Source: Gemmatirosa kalamazoonensis
GTDB taxonomy: Bacteria; Gemmatimonadota; Gemmatimonadetes; Gemmatimonadales; Gemmatimonadaceae
DNA length: 64,000 nucleotides
Direction: 5' to 3'
NCBI RefSeq assembly: GCF_000522985.1
Contig: NZ_CP007128.1
Location: 2,154,220 to 2,218,219 of the forward strand
Each line of letters begins with the position of its first letter. Position 1 is the stretch's first letter. Below, one piece after another: positions 5,507-22,913 of the stretch. The notes beneath the pieces were generated by a model, which ran no database searches, had not been told where the DNA came from, and worked only from the letters and a program-made list of their open reading frames with translations. Made by a program: the position numbers and the translations under genes.

Positions 5507-6663
5507 CCACGATCTCTCCCGGCACGACCGCCTACACGCCTCCAGTGCCCGGCGCGACGATGAAGGCGGTCGCCGTCGTGCCGGGAACGCCGGACAGCAT
5601 CCACCTGCGCGACGTGCGCGTACCATCGCATCTCGACCTGCCGGACGGGGTGCTCGTGCGCGTGCTGCGCGTCGGCGTCGACGGCACGGACAAGGAGATC
5701 AACGCCGCGGAGTACGGCGCCGCGCCGCCCGGCGACGACCATCTCATCCTCGGCCACGAGAGCTTCGGCATCGTGACGGCGGTCGCGCCCGACGTGACCG
5801 GCATCCGCGTCGGCGACCACGTCGTCGCGTCCGTGCGGCGGCCGGGGTCGAGCGTGTACGACCAGGTCGGGCTGCAGGACATGACGACCGACGACACGTA
5901 CTTCGAGCGCGGCATCAACCTGCGTCACGGCTTTCTCGCGGAGTACTTCGCCGAGAGCGCGCGGTATCTCGTGACGGTGCCGCGCGAGCTGCGCGAGGTG
6001 GGCGTGCTGCTGGAGCCGACGAGCGTGGCGGAGAAGGCGATCGCGCAGGCGTACGAGATCCAGCGTCGCCTGCGCGTGTGGCAGCCGCGGCGCGCGCTCG
6101 TCCTCGGCTCGGGCACGCTCGGCCTGCTCGCGTCGATGTTCCTGCGGCTGCGCGGGCTCGAGGTGGTGACGATGGGACGCACGGAGCGCCCGTACGTGAA
6201 CGCGGATCTGCTCGACGCGATCGGCGCGACCTACCTGTCCACGGCGGCGACGAGCGTGCGCGAGGCGTCGCGGCTGCACGGGCCGTTCGATCTCATCATC
6301 GAGGGGACCGGCTACTCGCCGCTCGTGTTCGAGGCGATGGAGGCGCTCGGCAAGAACGGCGTGCTCGTGATGGTGAGCGTGACCGGCGGCGACCGCACGG
6401 TGACCGTGCCCGCGGACCGCATCAACCAGGGCTTCGTGCTCGGCAACAAGGTGGCCGTCGGCAGCGTGAACGCGAGCCGCGCGGACTTCGAGCGCGGCGT
6501 GCAGGATCTCGCCCTCGCGGAGGCGACGCATCCCGGCTGGCTCGCGCGGCTGCTCACGCATCCCGTGAAGGGGCTCGAGAGCTACCGGGCGCTGCTCGAC
6601 ACGCTCACGATGGGGAAGGACGCGATCAAGGTGTACTGCGAGGTCGCGCCGCTCGAGGGATAG
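5503..6663 (+). CDS. Glucose 1-dehydrogenase, zinc-type MDR family
   Basis: This 386-residue medium-chain dehydrogenase resembles the archaeal-type glucose dehydrogenase that oxidises glucose to gluconolactone with NAD(P). The start at 5503 overlaps the upstream stop. The diagnostic GVDGTDKEI is near residue 57, the GHESFGIV zinc/catalytic region near 84, and the Rossmann motif LGSGTLGLL near 202. Glucose specificity is inferred from the GTDKEI signature and from the lactonase gene directly upstream. It is the last gene of the 3024-6663 operon and is followed by a long inverted repeat. Confidence 0.85.
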   Translation: MTTISPGTTAYTPPVPGATMKAVAVVPGTPDSIHLRDVRVPSHLDLPDGVLVRVLRVGVDGTDKEINAAEYGAAPPGDDHLILGHESFGIVTAVAPDVTGIRVGDHVVASVRRPGSSVYDQVGLQDMTTDDTYFERGINLRHGFLAEYFAESARYLVTVPRELREVGVLLEPTSVAEKAIAQAYEIQRRLRVWQPRRALVLGSGTLGLLASMFLRLRGLEVVTMGRTERPYVNADLLDAIGATYLSTAATSVREASRLHGPFDLIIEGTGYSPLVFEAMEALGKNGVLVMVSVTGGDRTVTVPADRINQGFVLGNKVAVGSVNASRADFERGVQDLALAEATHPGWLARLLTHPVKGLESYRALLDTLTMGKDAIKVYCEVAPLEG

Positions 6664-14757: not shown

Positions 14758-15516
14758 ATGGCGTCCGCGACGCTCACGATGCTCGTCGTCGACGACGAGC
14801 CGCAGATCCGCCGGCTCCTGCGCAACGCGCTCACCGCGGGTCCGGTCGACGCATCCGCCGACGCCGAGCCGGCCGCGGAGGTGCGCGTCATCGAGGCCGG
14901 CACGGGTCAGGAGGGGATCGACCTCGCCGCGGCGGAGTCTCCCGCGCTCGTCGTGCTCGACCTCGGCCTCCCCGACATGCCGGGGATCGACGTGTGCCGC
15001 GAGATCCGCCGCTGGCTCGACGCCCCGATCGTCGTGCTCTCCGCGCGCCACACCGACACCGAGAAGGCGGCGCTGCTCGACGCCGGCGCGGACGACTACA
15101 TCACGAAGCCGTTCAGCACCGTGGAGCTCCTCGCGCGGGTGCGCGTGCAGCTCCGCCGGGCGCGGGCGGGCAGCGCGTCGGCGTCCGCGACGGTGGTGAC
15201 GTTCGGCGACTTCGCCGTCGACCTGCCGCGCCGACGGGTCGAGCGTGCCGGCGCGCCGCTGCATCTCACGCGCACCGAGTGGGCGCTGCTGCGCACGTTC
15301 GTGCTGCACCCGCGGCAGACGCTCACCCACGGGCAGCTCTTCCGCGAGGTGTGGGGCACGTCCGAGGGGGACCCGCAGCAGTACCTGCGCGTGTACGTGG
15401 GACACCTGCGCCGGAAGATCGAGGCGGATCCGGTGCGGCCGCGGTTCATCCAGACGGATCCCGGCGTGGGCTATCGCTTCGAGCCCGACGGCGCCACGCC
15501 GATCCGAGATGCCTAA
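14758..15516 (+). CDS. OmpR/PhoB-family response regulator, KdpE-like
   Basis: This 252-residue regulator has a receiver domain with the acidic pair DDE near residue 12, the phospho-acceptor in VVLDLGLPDMPG near 66, and KPF near 118. A winged-helix DNA-binding domain follows from about 140 (HLTRTEWALLRTFVLHP, LRVYVGHLRRKIE, GVGYRF). It looks most like KdpE, but no kdpD or kdpFABC genes are present, so it is an orphan here. A TATGAT sequence at 14687-14692 could be its -10 element. The TonB-receptor locus 1.8 kb downstream carries 11-nt direct repeats of the kind this family binds. The stop codon TAA is inside a GCCTAAC word. Confidence 0.9.
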   Translation: MASATLTMLVVDDEPQIRRLLRNALTAGPVDASADAEPAAEVRVIEAGTGQEGIDLAAAESPALVVLDLGLPDMPGIDVCREIRRWLDAPIVVLSARHTDTEKAALLDAGADDYITKPFSTVELLARVRVQLRRARAGSASASATVVTFGDFAVDLPRRRVERAGAPLHLTRTEWALLRTFVLHPRQTLTHGQLFREVWGTSEGDPQQYLRVYVGHLRRKIEADPVRPRFIQTDPGVGYRFEPDGATPIRDA

Positions 15517-15558: not shown

Positions 15559-16272
15559 CTAACGGGCCGCGATCACGGCCGGCGCCGTGCAGCGCGTCCC
15601 GATCGGCAGCGCGTACAGCGCGCGCAGCACCGCGCGGTCCTCGTCGCCGATGCGCTCCGCCGTGACGAGCGGCGCCATGACCGAGCCGGCCGACGCGTGG
15701 TGGCCGAGGCCGAGCGCGTGCCCCATCTCGTGCTGCGTCACCGCGCGCACGTCGCGCGGCGCGTAGGGCGCGCCGTCGGGCGTCGCGAGCGCGAGGACGA
15801 CCGTGGCCGCCACGGCGCGCCCGTCGTCGTCGGAGACGAGCGTCGTGCGGCCGGCCGTGAGCGCCCCGAGCGCGCCGGCCGACGGGTCGTCGGGTGCGGT
15901 GCGCAGCGTCGGCGCCCACACCACTCGCACGTCGGCCCGCGTCGAGTCGCGGGCGACGGTCACCCGCAGCCCCGAGACGACGTCGCTCCACGCCGTCGCT
16001 CCAGCGGCGAGCGCCGCGCGCCACTCGCCAGCGTCGTGACCGGTGCTCCCCACGTCGAGCGGGCGGCGCTGCAGCCACACCGAGACCGTCCGCGCGGGCC
16101 ACCGCACGGCGCCGCCGTGCACGAGGAGCGCACGCTCCAGGCTCGCGGCCACGCTTCCTCCGGCGACGCTCGCGGCGAGCCTCCCACACGCGAGCGCCGG
16201 CGTGGAGTCGACGTCCACGGCGGGCTGGGGGCGCTGCACGAGCAGCGCGGCGAGGAGAGGGAAGAACGGCAT
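15559..16272 (-). CDS. Secreted matrixin-like zinc metalloprotease
   Basis: This 237-residue protein starts with a short signal peptide (MPFFPLLAALLVQ). The catalytic signature HEMGHALGLGHH at about residue 190 gives the HExxHxxGxxH zinc site of metzincins, and the Met-turn follows as SVMAPL. Upstream, a substrate-cleft beta region includes ADVRVVWAP. An AGGTG ribosome site precedes the ATG at 16272. It is divergent from the TonB receptor gene and shares its 247-nt intergenic region. Its stop (TAG) lies in a CGTTAGGC word. The target protein is unknown. Confidence 0.85.
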   Translation of the reverse strand: MPFFPLLAALLVQRPQPAVDVDSTPALACGRLAASVAGGSVAASLERALLVHGGAVRWPARTVSVWLQRRPLDVGSTGHDAGEWRAALAAGATAWSDVVSGLRVTVARDSTRADVRVVWAPTLRTAPDDPSAGALGALTAGRTTLVSDDDGRAVAATVVLALATPDGAPYAPRDVRAVTQHEMGHALGLGHHASAGSVMAPLVTAERIGDEDRAVLRALYALPIGTRCTAPAVIAAR

Positions 16273-16295: not shown

Positions 16296-16346
16296 ACGAG
16301 ACCTGTCCGTGACGCAGAAGATACGAAGCCGTGACAAGACGGACAA
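16296..16346. promoter_or_regulatory. 11-nt-period direct repeats (OmpR/PhoB-type operator candidate)
   Basis: Pentamers GAGAC, GTGAC, GATAC and GTGAC start at 16298, 16309, 16320 and 16331, exactly 11 nt apart. That spacing (7-nt half-sites plus 4-nt spacers) is the arrangement bound by PhoB-type winged-helix regulators. The array lies 24-75 nt upstream of the matrixin start and about 175 nt upstream of the TonB receptor start. Confidence 0.55.
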
Positions 16347-16457
16347 TTCGGGCGGCGGCCCTGTTACATGGACGGGTGCTCGGCGCTCGGGAGCCCGGCT
16401 CCTCGAGACGCACTCCCCTCAGAGCTCTGGTGACGGATCAGCGGAAGCGCCGCCCTT

Positions 16458-16477
16458 CCGTTACAAGTCCGTTGCCG
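16458..16477 (+). promoter_or_regulatory. Two-unit 11-nt direct repeat upstream of the TonB receptor
   Basis: CCGTTAC-AAGT-CCGTTGC gives two 7-nt half-sites with a 4-nt spacer, the layout of a single Pho-box-like site. It ends about 45 nt before the receptor ATG, where an activator would contact polymerase. Confidence 0.45.
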
Positions 16478-16519
16478 AACCGCAATCGCCCCGATACCGC
16501 GCCCGGCGAGATATCGGCC

Positions 16520-19297
16520 ATGCGAATCCCCCATCCGCTCGTCCTCGCCGTGGCGCCCGCGTTCGCGCTGGCCGCGCCCGCCGTCTCGCAGCAACCCGCG
16601 CGCACCACCGGCAGGATCGTCGGCCGTGTGGTGGACGCGGCCAGCGGGGCGGGACTCGCCGACGTCGGCATCCAGGTCGTCGGCACCACGTTAGGCACCC
16701 TCACCGGCGTCGACGGCCGGTTCACCGTTCCGGCGGCGCCCGCCGGCAGCGTCACGCTGATGGCGCGCCGCATCGGCTATCAGGCGAAGACGGTCACCGG
16801 CATCGTCGTGCCCGCCGGCGGCTCGGTGGAGCAGAGCATCGCGTTAGGCGCCGCCACCGTGCAGCTCCAGGCCGTCTCCGTCACCGCGTCCGCCGAGCGT
16901 GGCACGGTGAGCGAGGCGCTCGACCGGCAGCGCACCGCGACCGGCATCGTGAACTCGGTCACCGCCGAGCAGATCGCGCGCAGCCCCGACCGCGATGCCG
17001 CGCAGGCCGTGCAGCGCGTGAGCGGCGTGACGGTCACCGACGGCAAGTACGTGCTCGTGCGCGGGCTCGGCGAGCGCTACACCACCGCGTCGCTGAACGG
17101 CGCGCGCATGCCGAGCCCGGAGCCCGAGCGCAAGGTCGTGCCGCTCGACCTGTTCCCGTCGGCGCTGCTCCAGAGCGTGACGACGAGCAAGACGTTCACC
17201 CCCGACCAGCCCGGCGACTTCACCGGCGCCTCGGTCGACATCGCGACGCGCGAGTTCCCGGCGAAGCGGCTCGTCACGCTCACCGCGACGACCGGCTACA
17301 ACTCGATCGCCACGGGCCGCACGGTGCTCGGCGGCGCGCGGCTCGGCACCGAGTGGCTCGGCCTCGGCGGCAGCGGGCGCGCGCTGCCCGCCGGCGGCGA
17401 TCTGGCGGTACGGGCCCTCGATCCGGCGCAGTCGCGCCGCTTCGTCGGGCAATTGCACAACAACTGGACGCCGTTCCAGTCCACCGCGCGGCCGAATGCC
17501 GGCCTCGGCGCGTCGATCGGCGGCCAGGCGCCGTTAGGCTTCCTGGGTGGCCGCTCCATCGGATACGTCGCGTCGCTGTCGTACGCGTACAACCAGGAGG
17601 TCCGGGCCGACGAGCTGCGGCAGCTCGTGGTCGGCGGCGGGCCGGCGCAGGTGCGCGCGTTCAACTCGCTCGCCGGCGAGACCGGACGCGAGAGCGTGCT
17701 GTGGGGCGGCATCGCGAACGTCAGCACGCTGCTCGGCACGCACACGCGCATCGCGCTGAACAACATGTACAACCGGTCGGCGGACAACGAGGCGCACCTC
17801 GACGAGGGCTTCGACGAGTCGCAGAGCGTCGATCCGACGGCGCACGCGAGCACCATCCGCCGCTCGTGGCTCGACTTCGTGCAGCGTACGGTGCGCTCCA
17901 ACCAGCTCCGCGGCGAGCACACGATCGGCGCGCGGCAGAGCCTCGACTGGACGATCACGTCGTCCGGCGTGACGCGCGACCAGCCCGACCGCACCGACGT
18001 GTTCCTGCGCCGCGACACGCCGCGGGACGCCTACGTGCTGCCGCTCGGCGAGCCCCGCGCGGCGCGCCGGCTCTATGCCGCGCTGCGCGAGAACAGCGTG
18101 GCGCCACAGGCGAGCTACCGCGTGCAGCTCGGCAGCGACGTCCGCCCGTGGACGCTGAAGGTCGGCGGCGCCTACCGCGACACGCGGCGCACGGCGTCGA
18201 ACGAGCCGTTCTTCTTCACGTCGCCGAGCGTCACCGAAGCGGAGCTGCGTCAGACGCCGGAGCAGCTCTTCCCCACGCTGACGGCCGAGAACCGCGTGAT
18301 CGTCGACCGCGACCCGGCGTCGGGCGCGTACACCGCGAACGACCGCGTGGCCGCCGGCTACGGCATGGCGGAGATCCCGTTAGGCGACCATCTCCGCCTC
18401 GTCGGCGGCGCGCGCGTCGAGAGCTGGCGGCTCGCGCTGAACACGCGGCAGACCGTCGGCGATCGGTTCGACTCCACGTACACGAGCACCGACGTGCTCC
18501 CATCGCTCGCGCTGAACGTGAAGCTGACCGACGCACAGAACGTCCGGCTGTCGGCGTCGCGCACGCTGTCGCGCCCCGAGTACCGTGAGCTGTCGCCGCT
18601 GCAGGAGCGCGGGCCGATCGGGGACCTCGACTTCGTCGGCAACCCGTCGCTGCAGCGCGCGCTGATCGACAACGTCGACGCGCGGTGGGAGCTGTACCCG
18701 AACCCGGGCGAGATCCTCAGCCTCGCCGTGTTCGCGAAGCGGTTCGACCATCCGATCGAGCGCGTGCAGGTGTCGACGAACGGCGGCAACATCTACTCGT
18801 TCGTGAACGCGGACGCGGCGCACAACTACGGCGTGGAGCTCGAGGCGCGGAAGGGGCTCGGCTTCCTCGGTGCGCCCCTGCGGCCGTTCTCCGGCTTCGC
18901 GAACGTGACGCTGATGAAGAGCACCATCACGCCGGGCAACACCGACATCAGCGCGCTCACGAGCGCCGACCGGCCGATGGTGGGCCAGGCGCCGTACGTC
19001 GTGAACACCGGGCTGTCGTGGGCCACCGCCGGCGGCGGCACGAGCGCGACGCTGCTGTACAACGTCGTCGGCCGCGCGATCGCCGCGACGGGCACGAAGC
19101 CGACGCCCGATACCTACGTGCAGCCGCGCAACATGCTCGACCTCTCGCTCCAGTTCCCGCTCGCCGGCGGCGTCGCCGCGAAGCTGAACGGGCGCAACCT
19201 GCTCGACGCGCCGTACGAGGAGCGCGCCGGCGGCCTCACGCGCGTGCGCTACCGCACGGGACGCGTGCTCTCCATGGCGCTGACCTGGACGCCGTGA
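16520..19297 (+). CDS. TonB-dependent outer-membrane receptor with CarboxypepD_reg-like N-terminal domain
   Basis: This 925-residue receptor has a signal peptide (cleavage near AVSQQ). A CarboxypepD_reg-like beta-sandwich follows (about 35-110, GRVVDAASGAGLADVGIQVVG). The plug domain (about 125-240) contains DAAQAVQRVSGVTVTDGKYVLVRG and LNGARMPSPEPE. The remainder is a 22-strand beta-barrel ending RTGRVLSMALTW, with the usual terminal aromatic residue. Such receptors import bulky or scarce ligands using TonB energy. It is followed by a beta-helix lipoprotein, and the locus is framed by OmpR/PhoB-type regulators and 11-nt direct repeats, which suggests a nutrient-limitation response. The ligand is unknown; phosphate-containing compounds are a guess from the operator type only. 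Confidence 0.9.
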   Translation: MRIPHPLVLAVAPAFALAAPAVSQQPARTTGRIVGRVVDAASGAGLADVGIQVVGTTLGTLTGVDGRFTVPAAPAGSVTLMARRIGYQAKTVTGIVVPAGGSVEQSIALGAATVQLQAVSVTASAERGTVSEALDRQRTATGIVNSVTAEQIARSPDRDAAQAVQRVSGVTVTDGKYVLVRGLGERYTTASLNGARMPSPEPERKVVPLDLFPSALLQSVTTSKTFTPDQPGDFTGASVDIATREFPAKRLVTLTATTGYNSIATGRTVLGGARLGTEWLGLGGSGRALPAGGDLAVRALDPAQSRRFVGQLHNNWTPFQSTARPNAGLGASIGGQAPLGFLGGRSIGYVASLSYAYNQEVRADELRQLVVGGGPAQVRAFNSLAGETGRESVLWGGIANVSTLLGTHTRIALNNMYNRSADNEAHLDEGFDESQSVDPTAHASTIRRSWLDFVQRTVRSNQLRGEHTIGARQSLDWTITSSGVTRDQPDRTDVFLRRDTPRDAYVLPLGEPRAARRLYAALRENSVAPQASYRVQLGSDVRPWTLKVGGAYRDTRRTASNEPFFFTSPSVTEAELRQTPEQLFPTLTAENRVIVDRDPASGAYTANDRVAAGYGMAEIPLGDHLRLVGGARVESWRLALNTRQTVGDRFDSTYTSTDVLPSLALNVKLTDAQNVRLSASRTLSRPEYRELSPLQERGPIGDLDFVGNPSLQRALIDNVDARWELYPNPGEILSLAVFAKRFDHPIERVQVSTNGGNIYSFVNADAAHNYGVELEARKGLGFLGAPLRPFSGFANVTLMKSTITPGNTDISALTSADRPMVGQAPYVVNTGLSWATAGGGTSATLLYNVVGRAIAATGTKPTPDTYVQPRNMLDLSLQFPLAGGVAAKLNGRNLLDAPYEERAGGLTRVRYRTGRVLSMALTWTP

Positions 19298-19331
19298 CGG
19301 AGCTGTGACCTCGTCGTAACGGAACTGTGCG
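19292..19331 (+). promoter_or_regulatory. Four-unit 11-nt-period direct repeat overlapping the receptor stop codon
   Basis: Half-sites CCGTGAC, CTGTGAC, TCGTAAC and CTGTGCG are separated by 4-nt spacers, so GTNAC-type cores start at 19294, 19305, 19316 and 19327. It is the most regular array in the window. It lies 67-106 nt before the lipoprotein ATG and could give that gene its own activated promoter. The TGA stop of the receptor gene is inside the first unit. Confidence 0.6.
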
Positions 19332-19366
19332 ACCCCACGGACATCGTTCGTGGGGTCGTTCTCTTT
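19330..19366 (+). terminator. Intrinsic terminator after the TonB receptor gene
   Basis: CGACCCCAC and GTGGGGTCG form a perfect 9-bp stem around an 11-nt loop, followed by the T-rich stretch TTCTCTTT. It sits 32 nt before the next start codon in the same direction, so it would reduce read-through from the receptor gene into the lipoprotein gene. Confidence 0.75.
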
Positions 19367-19397
19367 GCTTCAACACACCTCGACACACCTCGCCAAC

Positions 19398-21143
19398 ATG
19401 GGTCTTCACCCCCGTCGGCTCCTCACGCTCGCCGTGATCACGGCGCTCGCGGCTTGCAGCAGCAACGACAACGGCGTCGTCGGCACGACGAACCCGCCAG
19501 TGGTCACGAAGCCGGATGCGCCTTCGAACCTCACCGCCGTCGCGCTCTCGCCGACGTCGATCCGCCTCACGTGGAGCGGTCCGACGACCGCGACCGGCTA
19601 CGTCGTGCAGCGCGCCGCGGGCAGCGGCGCGTTCGCGACCATCGCGTCGAACGTCGGTACGACGACGTACACCGACACCGGCCTCACGCCGGCGACCCAG
19701 TACCGCTACCAGGTCGCCACGCTCCGCAACGCCGACACGAGCACGACGTGGGCGGCGGTGGCCATGGGCTCGGCGCAGAAGGCGACGGTGACGCTCGCCG
19801 GCAACCTCACCACGACGCGCACGCTCACGCCGGACACGAACTGGGTGCTGAGCGGCTTCTACAAGGTGCGCGCGGGCGGGCAGCTCGTCGTGAAGCCGGG
19901 CACCGTGATCGTCGGCGACACGCTCGTGCCGGGCTCCTCGCTCTGGATCCTGCAGGGCGGCAAGATCGACGCGCAGGGCACCGCCGCGCAGCCGATCGTG
20001 TTCACGTCGGAGCGGGCCGCCGGCACGCGCGCACCGGGCGACTGGGGCGGCGTCATCATCGTCGGCAAGGCGATCGCGAACCGCGGCTGCCCGAACGCCG
20101 CGAACCCCGCGTGCGTGAACGCGACCCTCACCGAGGGCCCGTCGGGCGGCCTGCAGAACACCGCCGAGAACTACGCCGGCGGTACGGACCCGAACGACAA
20201 CAGCGGCACGCTGCGCTACGTGCGCATCGAGTTCGCCGGCTACGCGGTGGACGTGAATCAGGAGCTGAACGCGCTGTCGAGCTACGCGGTCGGCCGCGGC
20301 ACGACGTACGAGTACCTCGAGGCGCTGTCGGGGCTCGACGACTCGTTCGAGTTCTTCGGCGGCTCGGTCGACGCGCGCTACCTCGTGTCGTACGAGGCGG
20401 GCGACGACCACTTCGACTGGACCGAGGGCTTCAACGGCCGCGTGCAGTTCATCATCGGACTGCAGACGTACAAGCCCACGCCGCGCGCCGGCGCCGGCTT
20501 CGCGTCGAGCGACCCGCGCGGCTTCGAGGGAGACGGCTGCGAGAACGACAAGCCGGGCTGCCCGGACTACAACACGAAGCCGTACTCGATGCCGGTGTTC
20601 GCGAACTTCACGCTCATCGGGTCGGGCCCCGACGTCTTCACCGGCATCTCGGCCGCGAACACGAGCGGCGCGACGATCCGCCGCGGCTCGGGCGGCTCGC
20701 TGTTCAACGGCGTGATCGCGCGCTGGCAGGGGATCGGGCTGAACGTCGTCGACGCGCAGACCGACCAGCGTCGGCAGGAAGACAGCCTGTTCGTGAGCAA
20801 CAACGTGTTCGCGTCGAACGCCGGCGGGAACTTCAACGCCGCGGGCACCGGCTTCGGCCAGCTCACGAGCTTCCCGAACAACGACGACTCGCCGGCCGAT
20901 CCGACGACGTTCTTCACCGCGCTCCCCGCGGCCGGCGCGACGCCGACGCTCGCTGGGCTCGACTGGACGCCGTCGGCGGCGTCGCCCCTGCGCAGCGGCG
21001 GTCTCACGACGCTGCCGCCTCGCGTCGCGGCGCGCGTGACGGGCTTCTTCGGCGGCGCGATGCCGGCCACGTCGTACCGCGGCGCGGCCGACCCGAGCGG
21101 CACGAAGTGGTGGGCCGGCTGGACGAGCTACGCGCGCAACTGA
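19398..21143 (+). CDS. Lipoprotein with fibronectin type III and right-handed beta-helix domains
   Basis: This 581-residue protein has a lipoprotein signal with lipobox ALAAC (Cys near residue 21). A fibronectin type III domain spans about 40-125 (PSNLTAVALSPTSIRLTWSGP ... GLTPATQYRYQVATL). The rest is a parallel beta-helix-like domain of the type paired with TonB receptors in several phyla (LSGFYKVRAGGQLVVKPGTV, GDWGGVIIVGKAIANRGC, YVRIEFAGYAVD, SGLDDSFEFFGGSVDARYLV). It is probably exposed at the outer membrane and helps capture ligand for the receptor encoded just upstream. ATG 19398 is chosen because the lipobox then falls at the normal distance. Confidence 0.85.
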   Translation: MGLHPRRLLTLAVITALAACSSNDNGVVGTTNPPVVTKPDAPSNLTAVALSPTSIRLTWSGPTTATGYVVQRAAGSGAFATIASNVGTTTYTDTGLTPATQYRYQVATLRNADTSTTWAAVAMGSAQKATVTLAGNLTTTRTLTPDTNWVLSGFYKVRAGGQLVVKPGTVIVGDTLVPGSSLWILQGGKIDAQGTAAQPIVFTSERAAGTRAPGDWGGVIIVGKAIANRGCPNAANPACVNATLTEGPSGGLQNTAENYAGGTDPNDNSGTLRYVRIEFAGYAVDVNQELNALSSYAVGRGTTYEYLEALSGLDDSFEFFGGSVDARYLVSYEAGDDHFDWTEGFNGRVQFIIGLQTYKPTPRAGAGFASSDPRGFEGDGCENDKPGCPDYNTKPYSMPVFANFTLIGSGPDVFTGISAANTSGATIRRGSGGSLFNGVIARWQGIGLNVVDAQTDQRRQEDSLFVSNNVFASNAGGNFNAAGTGFGQLTSFPNNDDSPADPTTFFTALPAAGATPTLAGLDWTPSAASPLRSGGLTTLPPRVAARVTGFFGGAMPATSYRGAADPSGTKWWAGWTSYARN

Positions 21144-21160
21144 TCGGATCCCGATCGCCG

Positions 21161-21721
21161 ATGAAGCTCGCGTCTCGTGTCTCGTTCGTTCTCGCGCTGC
21201 TCGGTGCCTGTCGCGGCGCCGAGCGGCCGTCGGCCGCCGACAGTGCATATGCGCCGAGCGTGATGATCGCGCGCTTCCGGCAGCAGGTGCCGGAGCGGCC
21301 GACGCGGTTAGGCGACGGCGCCGCGGAGGGCGCGGACACGCTGCTCGCCCGGTGGGCGCGTGGCGTCGCGGCGCGCGACACGGCGGCGCTGCGGCCGCTC
21401 GCGCTCACCGTGAGCGAGTTCGCGTGGCTCTACTACGCCGACAGCCCGATGGCGCAGCCGCCGTACGAGCTCGATCCCGACGTCATGTGGACGCAGATCT
21501 CGTCGCAGAGCGCGCGCGGGCTCACGCGCGCGCTGCAGCGCTTCGGCGGCCGATCGTTAGGCGCCGTACGCTCGGCGTGCACGGCGCCGCGCGTCTCGCG
21601 TGCGCTGCGGCTCTACGACTGCACCGTCGCCGTGCCCGCGGCTGGCGGCGCGACGCTGCGGTTGTCGGTGGTGGAGCGCGACGGGCGGTTCAAGCTGGTC
21701 GGCTTCGGCACGAACCTCTGA
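21161..21721 (+). CDS. Small hypothetical lipoprotein
   Basis: This 186-residue protein has a lipobox LLGAC near residue 17. The mature part has a helical segment (PSVMIARFRQQVPERP) and then a compact alpha/beta part (DTAALRPLALTVSEFAWLYY, LYDCTVAVPA, RLSVVERDGRFKLVGFGTNL). Two Cys residues in the C-terminal half may form a disulphide. The ending resembles proteins of the cystatin/NTF2-like class, but I cannot assign a family. It starts 18 nt after the beta-helix lipoprotein and 4 nt before the regulator gene, so the three are probably one transcript. Confidence 0.7.
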   Translation: MKLASRVSFVLALLGACRGAERPSAADSAYAPSVMIARFRQQVPERPTRLGDGAAEGADTLLARWARGVAARDTAALRPLALTVSEFAWLYYADSPMAQPPYELDPDVMWTQISSQSARGLTRALQRFGGRSLGAVRSACTAPRVSRALRLYDCTVAVPAAGGATLRLSVVERDGRFKLVGFGTNL

Positions 21722-21725
21722 GTCG

Positions 21726-22394
21726 ATGACGGCCCGCGCGGCGCCGCACGCGCTCGTCGCCGCGCGCGAGACGGAGGTCGTCGCCGACCTCACGTACGGG
21801 CTCGCGCGCGCGGGCTTCACGGTGGCGAGCGCGCCGAGCGTCGCCGAGGCGTGGATCGCGGTGCACGAGCGGCCACCGGAGCTGCTCGTCGCGAGCGAGG
21901 CGCTCGCGCTGTCGCCGCGCGTGGGACTGCTGCCGCGCCTCCGCCGCGATCCCACGGTGCGGCACGTCGGCGTCATCATCGTCACCGATGGCCCGGCGCC
22001 CGCGGCGTGCGATGCCGTCGTCGCGCGCCCGTCGGACGCGCCGGCGATCGCCGCCGCCGCGGGGAGCGTGCTGCGACTCGTGCGCGAGCGTGCCGGCCGC
22101 GCGGGCGGCGACACCGCGTGTCCCATCGCGCTCGACGGGCTGCTGAACGAGGTGCGCGTGCGCGACGCGCGTCTCGCCCTGTCGCCGAGCGAGCTCGCGC
22201 TGCTGCGCCTCCTGCTCGCGCATCCACGCGGCGTCCCCGACGTGCGGCTGCGCCGCGTGCTCTGGGACGACGGGACGCGCGCGCACATCCGCGCCCTCGT
22301 TTCCGTCGCGCACCGCCTGCGGCGCAAGCTGCGCCCATTCGGCGTGACGCTGGGGCGATCGGCGGACGAAGCGGGGTACGCGCTACGCTGGTGA
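21726..22394 (+). CDS. Winged-helix regulator with a degenerate (pseudo-)receiver domain
   Basis: This 222-residue protein has the OmpR/PhoB layout. The C-terminal winged helix (about 130-222: LALSPSELALLRLLLAHP, HIRALVSVAHRLRRKLRPFG, EAGYALRW) is intact. In the N-terminal receiver the position of the phospho-accepting Asp reads ELLVASEAL, and the conserved Lys region reads VVARPSDAP, so both key residues are missing. It is likely a phosphorylation-independent regulator. It ends the receptor-lipoprotein gene set, and an 11-nt-period repeat array begins 13 nt after its stop, so local autoregulation or cross-regulation is a reasonable guess. Confidence 0.82.
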   Translation: MTARAAPHALVAARETEVVADLTYGLARAGFTVASAPSVAEAWIAVHERPPELLVASEALALSPRVGLLPRLRRDPTVRHVGVIIVTDGPAPAACDAVVARPSDAPAIAAAAGSVLRLVRERAGRAGGDTACPIALDGLLNEVRVRDARLALSPSELALLRLLLAHPRGVPDVRLRRVLWDDGTRAHIRALVSVAHRLRRKLRPFGVTLGRSADEAGYALRW

Positions 22395-22406
22395 TGGCGA
22401 GAGGGC

Positions 22407-22437
22407 ACGTTACGCGGCCGTGACGCGCTCGTGACCG
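22407..22437 (+). promoter_or_regulatory. Three-unit 11-nt-period direct repeat
   Basis: Half-sites ACGTTAC, CCGTGAC and TCGTGAC with 4-nt spacers place GTNAC cores at 22409, 22420 and 22431. The array lies between the winged-helix regulator and a small lipoprotein gene (ATG 22479). Same pattern as at 16296 and 19292. Confidence 0.55.
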
Positions 22438-22478: not shown

Positions 22479-22913
22479 ATGCGCATGCCGGTGTGGACGA
22501 CGGCGATGCTGGTGTTGGCGGGGATGGGATGCGAGCGCGGTGCGGTGAACCCGTGCGACCGCCCGTTCCCCGACGTCGACCGGCTGATCGACGTATCGAC
22601 GGCGGGGACCGGCGCGGCGTCGCTCGCGCGACTGCGCGTCGTGCAGCGCTACGCGCCGGGCATCGACGATGGGTGCGCGCAGGCGGTCCCGGTGCGCCTC
22701 TCGTTCGTCGGCAGCGGGCCGAGTGCGGTGTCGTTCACCTATCGCGTGACGTGGAGCGCGAGCGGCGGAAGCGGCGGCTGGTTCCGTGGCGGCGTCGTGA
22801 CGCGGCTCGGTGTCGGCGCCGAGTTGGACGCGGGCATCGTGCGCGACGGCGCGCCCATCGGTGAGGGGACGATCGCCGTCGCGGTCACCGACATGCGCGC
22901 GCTCGACCGCTGA
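22479..22913 (+). CDS. Small hypothetical lipoprotein
   Basis: This 144-residue protein starts with a signal peptide and lipobox LAGMGC (Cys near residue 18). The mature part is rich in beta strand (VPVRLSFVGSGPSAVSFTYRVTW, GGWFRGGVVTRLG, GEGTIAVAVTDMRAL) and contains two further Cys residues. I recognise no family. It stands behind a GTNAC repeat array, which makes it a candidate member of the same regulon as the TonB receptor. The 139 nt between its stop and panC hold a possible GATAAC -10 element near 22959 and nothing else I can support. Confidence 0.65.
   Translation: MRMPVWTTAMLVLAGMGCERGAVNPCDRPFPDVDRLIDVSTAGTGAASLARLRVVQRYAPGIDDGCAQAVPVRLSFVGSGPSAVSFTYRVTWSASGGSGGWFRGGVVTRLGVGAELDAGIVRDGAPIGEGTIAVAVTDMRALDR

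Follow-up and report, generated by a model that had tools for sequence, protein, structure and literature searches.

We analysed a window of 64,000 nucleotides (nt) from the genome of Gemmatirosa kalamazoonensis (contig NZ_CP007128.1, positions 2,154,220 to 2,218,219), in which a gene block for a TonB-dependent outer-membrane receptor, a beta-helix lipoprotein and small lipoproteins is interspersed with arrays of short sequence units repeated directly every 11 nt (Table 1). The original prediction had read these arrays as PhoB-type binding sites of a self-contained uptake regulon, possibly a phosphate-type response, controlled by two regulators encoded nearby. Our analysis points to Pho boxes of a regulon that extends well beyond the window.

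Table 1 Genes and sequence features of the receptor/lipoprotein block in window coordinates (feature, position, strand, remarks; box assignments are predictions; pLDDT, predicted local distance difference test)
KdpE-like response regulator	14758..15516	+	NCBIfam KdpE, PDB KdpE 4kny
Divergent matrixin-type metalloprotease	15559..16272	-	Pfam Peptidase_M10
Weaker four-unit array, GAGAC/GTGAC/GATAC/GTGAC	16298..16335	+	between divergent matrixin and receptor genes
Putative Pho box 1, GTTAC-N6-GTTGC	16460..16475	+	45-60 nt 5′ of receptor start; top-ranked site of the window
TonB-dependent outer-membrane receptor	16520..19297	+	Pfam PF13620 (CarboxypepD_reg), PF07715 (plug), PF00593 (beta-barrel)
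Putative Pho box 2, GTGAC-N6-GTGAC-N6-GTAAC plus degenerate GTGCG	19294..19331	+	5′ of beta-helix gene
Terminator-like hairpin	19329..19359	+	14-pair stem, T-rich tail; between box 2 and beta-helix start
FN3 and right-handed beta-helix lipoprotein	19398..21143	+	Pfam fn3; AlphaFold pLDDT 84
Small lipoprotein (third gene of the block, conserved)	21161..21721	+	directly 3′ of beta-helix gene in 44 relatives' loci
Decayed PhoB-like pseudo-response regulator (putative)	21726..22394	+	closest to PhoBs encoded in the pho locus
Putative Pho box 3, GTTAC-N6-GTGAC-N6-GTGAC	22409..22435	+	5′ of small lipoprotein gene 22479..22913
Small predicted lipoprotein, candidate box 3 target	22479..22913	+	no homologue found in the relatives' loci
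panC	23053		3′ of the 22479 lipoprotein gene

All 13 half-sites of the original prediction lie where it had placed them, with an 11-nt step from each unit to the following one, so that the arrays have at least two directly repeated units at this period, as expected of a Pho box. GTNAC, which had been proposed as the unit, is matched literally by nine of the 13 and is departed from by GAGAC, GATAC, GTTGC and GTGCG. Using GTDAC (D = A, G or T) we found four pairs within the window at a distance of 11 and none at each other distance from 5 to 20, and all four fall inside the arrays. Throughout the genome (7,479,215 bp in four contigs, the window being located on the 5,311,527-bp contig, designated C2) there are 39 such pairs with the 11-nt period compared with 5 for the control. 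The triplet GTDAC-N6-GTDAC-N6-GTDAC occurs three times in these 7.48 Mb, at window positions 19294 and 22409 and at C2:1912085, and its reversed-pattern control does not occur.

The same spacing is found in homologous loci of the phylum Gemmatimonadota. In a first set of 19 such loci together with the pho locus of G. kalamazoonensis, GTDAC pairs numbered 40 at a distance of 11 compared with approximately 4 at other distances, and stood before the receptor gene, the beta-helix gene and DUF47-Pit. A scan of named genomes provided a larger set, with 52 loci from Gemmatimonadota and 28 from elsewhere, mostly Bacteroidota; it is not a fully independent replicate because a few contigs are shared with the first set. 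The 52 Gemmatimonadota loci (861 kb) contain 115 pairs at 11 nt and about 11 per other spacing, with counts also raised at 22 and 33. The 28 other loci (530 kb) show no 11-nt peak, and on this basis we rejected a sharing of the box by Bacteroidota. When the 350 nt upstream of each gene were considered, strict pairs in coding-strand orientation were identified for 26 of 49 beta-helix genes, 19 of 48 receptor genes and 4 of 11 DUF47 genes, and for none of udk, phoR, ppx, ppk, pit, the small lipoprotein gene and NT5. Relatives usually display the order NT5, udk-phoB-phoR, (box) receptor, (box) beta-helix, small lipoprotein, ppx, ppk, pit, DUF47 (box), with the receptor orthologue adjoining the beta-helix gene in 48 of the 52 loci. 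In G. kalamazoonensis the block is split. One part, at 4.45 Mb, comprises phoBR, a beta-helix paralogue, ppx, ppk and pit; the other, within the window, comprises the receptor, beta-helix and small lipoprotein genes.

The box consists of direct repeats CCGTKAC-N4-YCGTKRC with an 11-nt period, and a 25-column matrix was trained on the relatives only (consensus CGCCGTGACACGTCCGTGACAG). Among approximately 128,000 window positions it placed sites 16460, 22420, 19294, 22409, 19305 and 16298 at ranks 1, 2, 3, 4, 5 and 8, with scores of 24.8, 19.4, 17.9, 15.2, 13.4 and 11.0 bits, respectively. These six sites occupy ranks 1-6 when the matrix is built from receptor upstreams only and ranks 1, 2, 3, 8, 11 and 13 when it is built from beta-helix upstreams only. 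The 16298 array, at rank 6 or 13 in this cross-validation, is weak (about 10-11 bits) and possibly represents an auxiliary box; 16460, 19294 and 22409/22420 are strong. All four window matches of at least 15 bits lie within the arrays. Markov sequence modelled on the window gave 0.5 such matches per 64 kb, and 400 kb of the chromosome itself yielded none; nor was there an intergenic match of at least 10 bits in 41 kb. An equal density at random intergenic sites, which the original prediction had named as fatal to it, was therefore not observed. The scores carry the limits of a matrix seeded with strict GTDAC pairs from related sequences, with gene starts extrapolated from tblastn and genes called by a simple GC-frame rule. 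A one-mismatch pattern scan proved too loose to serve as a regulon list and was dropped.

Calling upstream boxes at 13 bits or more with the receptor-trained matrix, we identified a box in the 52 relatives' loci 5′ of the receptor in 43 of 48 cases, of the beta-helix gene in 22 of 49 and of udk-phoB-phoR in 15 of 20; phoR, ppx, ppk and the small lipoprotein gene had one in at most 1 of 45. NT5 has a box on the reverse strand in 11 of 32 cases, corresponding to the intergenic space that it shares with udk. Box 2, whose first unit overlaps the stop codon of the receptor gene, has the same position 5′ of the beta-helix gene as the boxes of the relatives.

Boxes above 16 bits were also identified in relatives 5′ of genes encoding PstS (PF12849; loci L148, L151, L168 and L172), PstC-like permeases (PF00528; L127 and L133) and phosphate-porin-like Porin_O_P proteins (PF07396; L151 and L162). 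Within the G. kalamazoonensis genome, phoBR is present with a box of its own, udk-phoBR carrying one of 15.6 bits (L050:5820-5844, with udk at 5914), and DUF47-Pit carries one of 21.0 bits, the Pit assignment being based on synteny and tblastn matches to the region and not on a family match. The box is thus conserved 5′ of genes for phosphate acquisition (Pst, Pit and phosphate porin). Because it precedes phosphate genes in relatives and reads as the Pho box of the phylum, the phosphate-type response of the original prediction appears to hold, as does its view of PhoB-type direct repeats over local uptake genes, which the matrix ranks and the conserved boxes 5′ of receptor and beta-helix genes support. 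PstSCAB under PhoB control is typical of Pho regulons, although some known ones, such as that of plant-associated Flavobacterium, do without it, and it was not found here: the genome contains no PstS above the cut-off and no PstB (best score 168 against a cut-off of 343). Pit/DUF47 therefore seems to be the basis of phosphate uptake; the genes ppx, ppk, pit and DUF47/PhoU_div complete the pho locus. A further box of 18.0 bits at C2:4742522 (L088:1497-1521) lies ~115 nt upstream of a gene for a TonB_C protein, which is a candidate energiser for the phosphate receptor.

We consider it highly probable that the arrays are Pho boxes through which the phosphate regulator PhoB controls an outer-membrane scavenging block as part of a genome-wide Pho regulon, and our preferred reading of the box is as the Pho box of the phylum Gemmatimonadota. 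The boxes, their conservation, the genes behind them and the synteny with phoBR are features of the sequences themselves. The regulator that uses the window boxes is likely the intact PhoB encoded at C2:4446575, 2.27 Mb from the block, where it is accompanied by phoR, ppx, ppk, pit and boxes of its own. The gene phoB is the regulator gene that co-occurs with the block in relatives, and the PhoB recognition helix (IQTRTVDMHVQRLRTKLG) is identical in G. kalamazoonensis and most relatives with boxed receptors, the remaining relatives showing one or two conservative changes. Receptor/lipoprotein pairs regarded as homologous respond to low phosphate in Flavobacterium and Caulobacter, which likewise favours a phosphate regulon. 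Because of these other boxes and the distant phoBR, the window set is one piece of a genome-wide regulon, and the self-contained regulon originally proposed is not upheld. Under low phosphate PhoR would phosphorylate PhoB, which would bind head-to-tail on the boxes, each repeat unit being contacted by one winged-helix domain, and recruit RNA polymerase; we infer the binding, the activation rather than repression, and the substrate. The window targets would be the receptor, lipoprotein 22479, and the beta-helix lipoprotein together with the two genes behind it, which encode the small lipoprotein and the decayed regulator; targets elsewhere would include udk-phoB-phoR itself, the DUF47-Pit phosphate importer and probably a TonB energiser. 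The likely role of the block is the scavenging of phosphate or organophosphate, with the receptor and surface lipoproteins acting at the outer membrane and Pit/DUF47 carrying phosphate across the inner membrane.

A number of observations weigh against this interpretation. One of the arrays upstream of the receptor, at 16298, is weak, the gene behind box 3 has no relatives, and phoBR lies beside the receptor in relatives but 2.27 Mb away in G. kalamazoonensis. The relatives are not independent, and some genomes are present in both comparison sets. In addition, the beta-helix gene has no upstream box in some relatives and only 9 of 30 DUF47 upstreams contain a strict pair, and the regulon therefore varies.

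The original prediction had put the two neighbouring regulators, 14758 and 21726, in control, and a local regulon in which one of them binds the boxes seems to us very improbable. Both have an OmpR-type DNA-binding sequence and are encoded within 8 kb, and 21726, which is nearest to PhoB, probably shares a transcript with the block. However neither is conserved with the locus, both recognition helices differ from that of PhoB, and the same boxes occur at the distant phoBR and Pit genes. 14758 has KdpE as its best NCBIfam model (217 bits, below the cut-off of that model) and as its best solved structure (PDB 4kny, 194 bits); being KdpE-like and not conserved with the locus among the relatives' orthologous loci, it was rejected as the regulator of these boxes. 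At 27-30% identity, 21726 best matches the PhoBs encoded in the pho locus, in three genomes at the very coordinates of the locus PhoB, and the only other match within its own genome is the intact PhoB. It carries Ser in place of the phospho-acceptor Asp and has lost the acidic pair, and with this pseudo-receiver and a diverged recognition helix it was ruled out as an intact regulator; we read it as a decayed PhoB copy, apparently in the same presumed operon as the block. An elaboration that we regard as unlikely is a Pho regulon without PstS and PstB centred on the receptor/lipoprotein block, in which 21726, expressed from a Pho box, would modulate the response independently of phosphorylation, either damping it or locking it.

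Use of the boxes by another OmpR-family regulator (GlnR, MtrA or WalR-like) in a nitrogen, osmotic or envelope stress response would be consistent with the core and spacing shared with the GlnR box GTnAC-n6-GTnAC (PMC10704036) and with the two short direct repeats that make up MtrA sites (PMC5650626). The targets in relatives are however Pst, phosphate-porin-like proteins, Pit/DUF47, phoBR and the receptor/beta-helix pair, and the block co-occurs with phoB, so that we give this explanation little credence. Chance repetition of a common pentamer in a genome of 73% GC can virtually be dismissed: GTGAC is indeed frequent, with 74 occurrences on the + strand of the window, and several of the 39 genomic GTDAC pairs fall in coding sequence or in copies of repeated elements, but conservation in relatives is specific to spacing, position and strand, and the own-genome background, spacing controls and Markov shuffles all speak against it.

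The protein encoded at 19398 is modelled by AlphaFold as FN3 plus beta-helix, and among full-length Foldseek matches the best is an FN3/beta-helix polygalacturonase of family 28, with a low template modelling score. It has homologues in Bacteroidota (33-40% identity) that are encoded beside a TonB receptor and phoBR, and its paralogue at C2:4448967 lies directly behind PhoB (C2:4446575) and a PhoR-type kinase. The hairpin preceding the beta-helix gene overlaps its expected core promoter, and comparable hairpins are present in 7 of 31 relatives. The small lipoprotein at 21161 has no family match; a clear fold was dropped as a description since its good model (pLDDT 89) matches no solved structure at E ≤ 0.001. 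Lipoprotein 22479 has no Pfam or NCBIfam match and no tblastn match in the relatives' orthologous loci. Among the genes around which the original prediction had placed the arrays, the matrixin gene lacks a strong box on the strand that encodes it and has no match in the relatives' orthologous loci; we found no evidence of its membership in the regulon.

The third genomic triplet, a perfect GTGAC repeat at C2:1912085-1912111 (L017:7086-7112), lies between genes for a SARP/BTAD-type regulator and a PEP-CTERM-like protein. With a matrix score of just 8.4 bits it was dropped as a Pho box, and it is possibly an operator of the SARP itself. A heptamer, GTTAGGC (mostly CGTTAGGC), is highly repeated throughout the genome, and within the window occurs at 16691, 16834, 17525, 18381, 21307 and 21556. 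In 464 kb there are 301 TTAGGC sites, each with a preceding G, and called genes have 134 in-frame TTA codons, of which 120 lie within G-TTA-GGC. Those loci of relatives that were checked contain the heptamer rarely or not at all. It resembles an iterated motif specific to the lineage, comparable to HIP1 or uptake sequences.

We found no Gemmatimonadota Pho box described within open-access papers; a survey of the phylum mentions PhoR-PhoB and pst, and a text search of it returned no box (PMC10581226). The consensus reported here supplies a phosphate-response box for a soil phylum that is widespread but hardly cultured, and the matrix can be used on any Gemmatimonadota genome for listing phosphate-responsive genes. 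The receptor/lipoprotein pair would moreover be linked to phosphate in a third lineage, after Flavobacterium and Caulobacter.

As in the Pho regulons of E. coli PhoB and Streptomyces PhoP, direct repeats of 11 nt, at least two per promoter, are located 5′ of phosphate-uptake genes and phoBR, and in Gemmatimonadota relatives the PhoB orthologue adjoins its targets. The unit consensus CCGTKAC/CGTKRC differs from those of both, the E. coli Pho box reading TGTCA on the coding strand where the box here reads a TGACA core, and the lack of a detected PstS or PstB sets G. kalamazoonensis apart from a typical Pho regulon. The Streptomyces PHO box is composed of 11-nt direct repeat units, GTTCACC (PMC6988585). 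The S. venezuelae GlnR box has the same pentamer core and spacer as the window sites, which also read GTnAC-n6-GTnAC, with nitrogen genes there and phosphate genes here.

The arrangement of the block resembles the phoBR operon of Flavobacterium johnsoniae, in which phosphate depletion strongly induces the TonB-dependent receptor Fjoh_0545 and FII (Fjoh_0546), a lipoprotein of the beta-helix type; FII was reported to be homologous to a low-phosphate lipoprotein of Caulobacter, and pstS was present in just one plant-associated Flavobacterium strain of that study (PMC8115612). In Gemmatimonadota relatives, as in F. johnsoniae, a beta-helix lipoprotein gene directly follows the receptor gene beside phoBR, and Chryseobacterium loci contain the same pair beside phoBR. 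Unlike in F. johnsoniae, the window block is far from phoBR, and the Bacteroidota homologues do not share the 11-nt spacing. The Caulobacter lipoprotein ElpS (CC_0170) is made under phosphate starvation and encoded beside the TonB receptor CC_0171, and its overexpression raises phosphatase activity although it is not itself a phosphatase (PMC2996285). Compared by description, this outer-membrane lipoprotein gene beside a TonB-dependent receptor gene parallels the window block, and unlike the latter it adjoins type II secretion genes.

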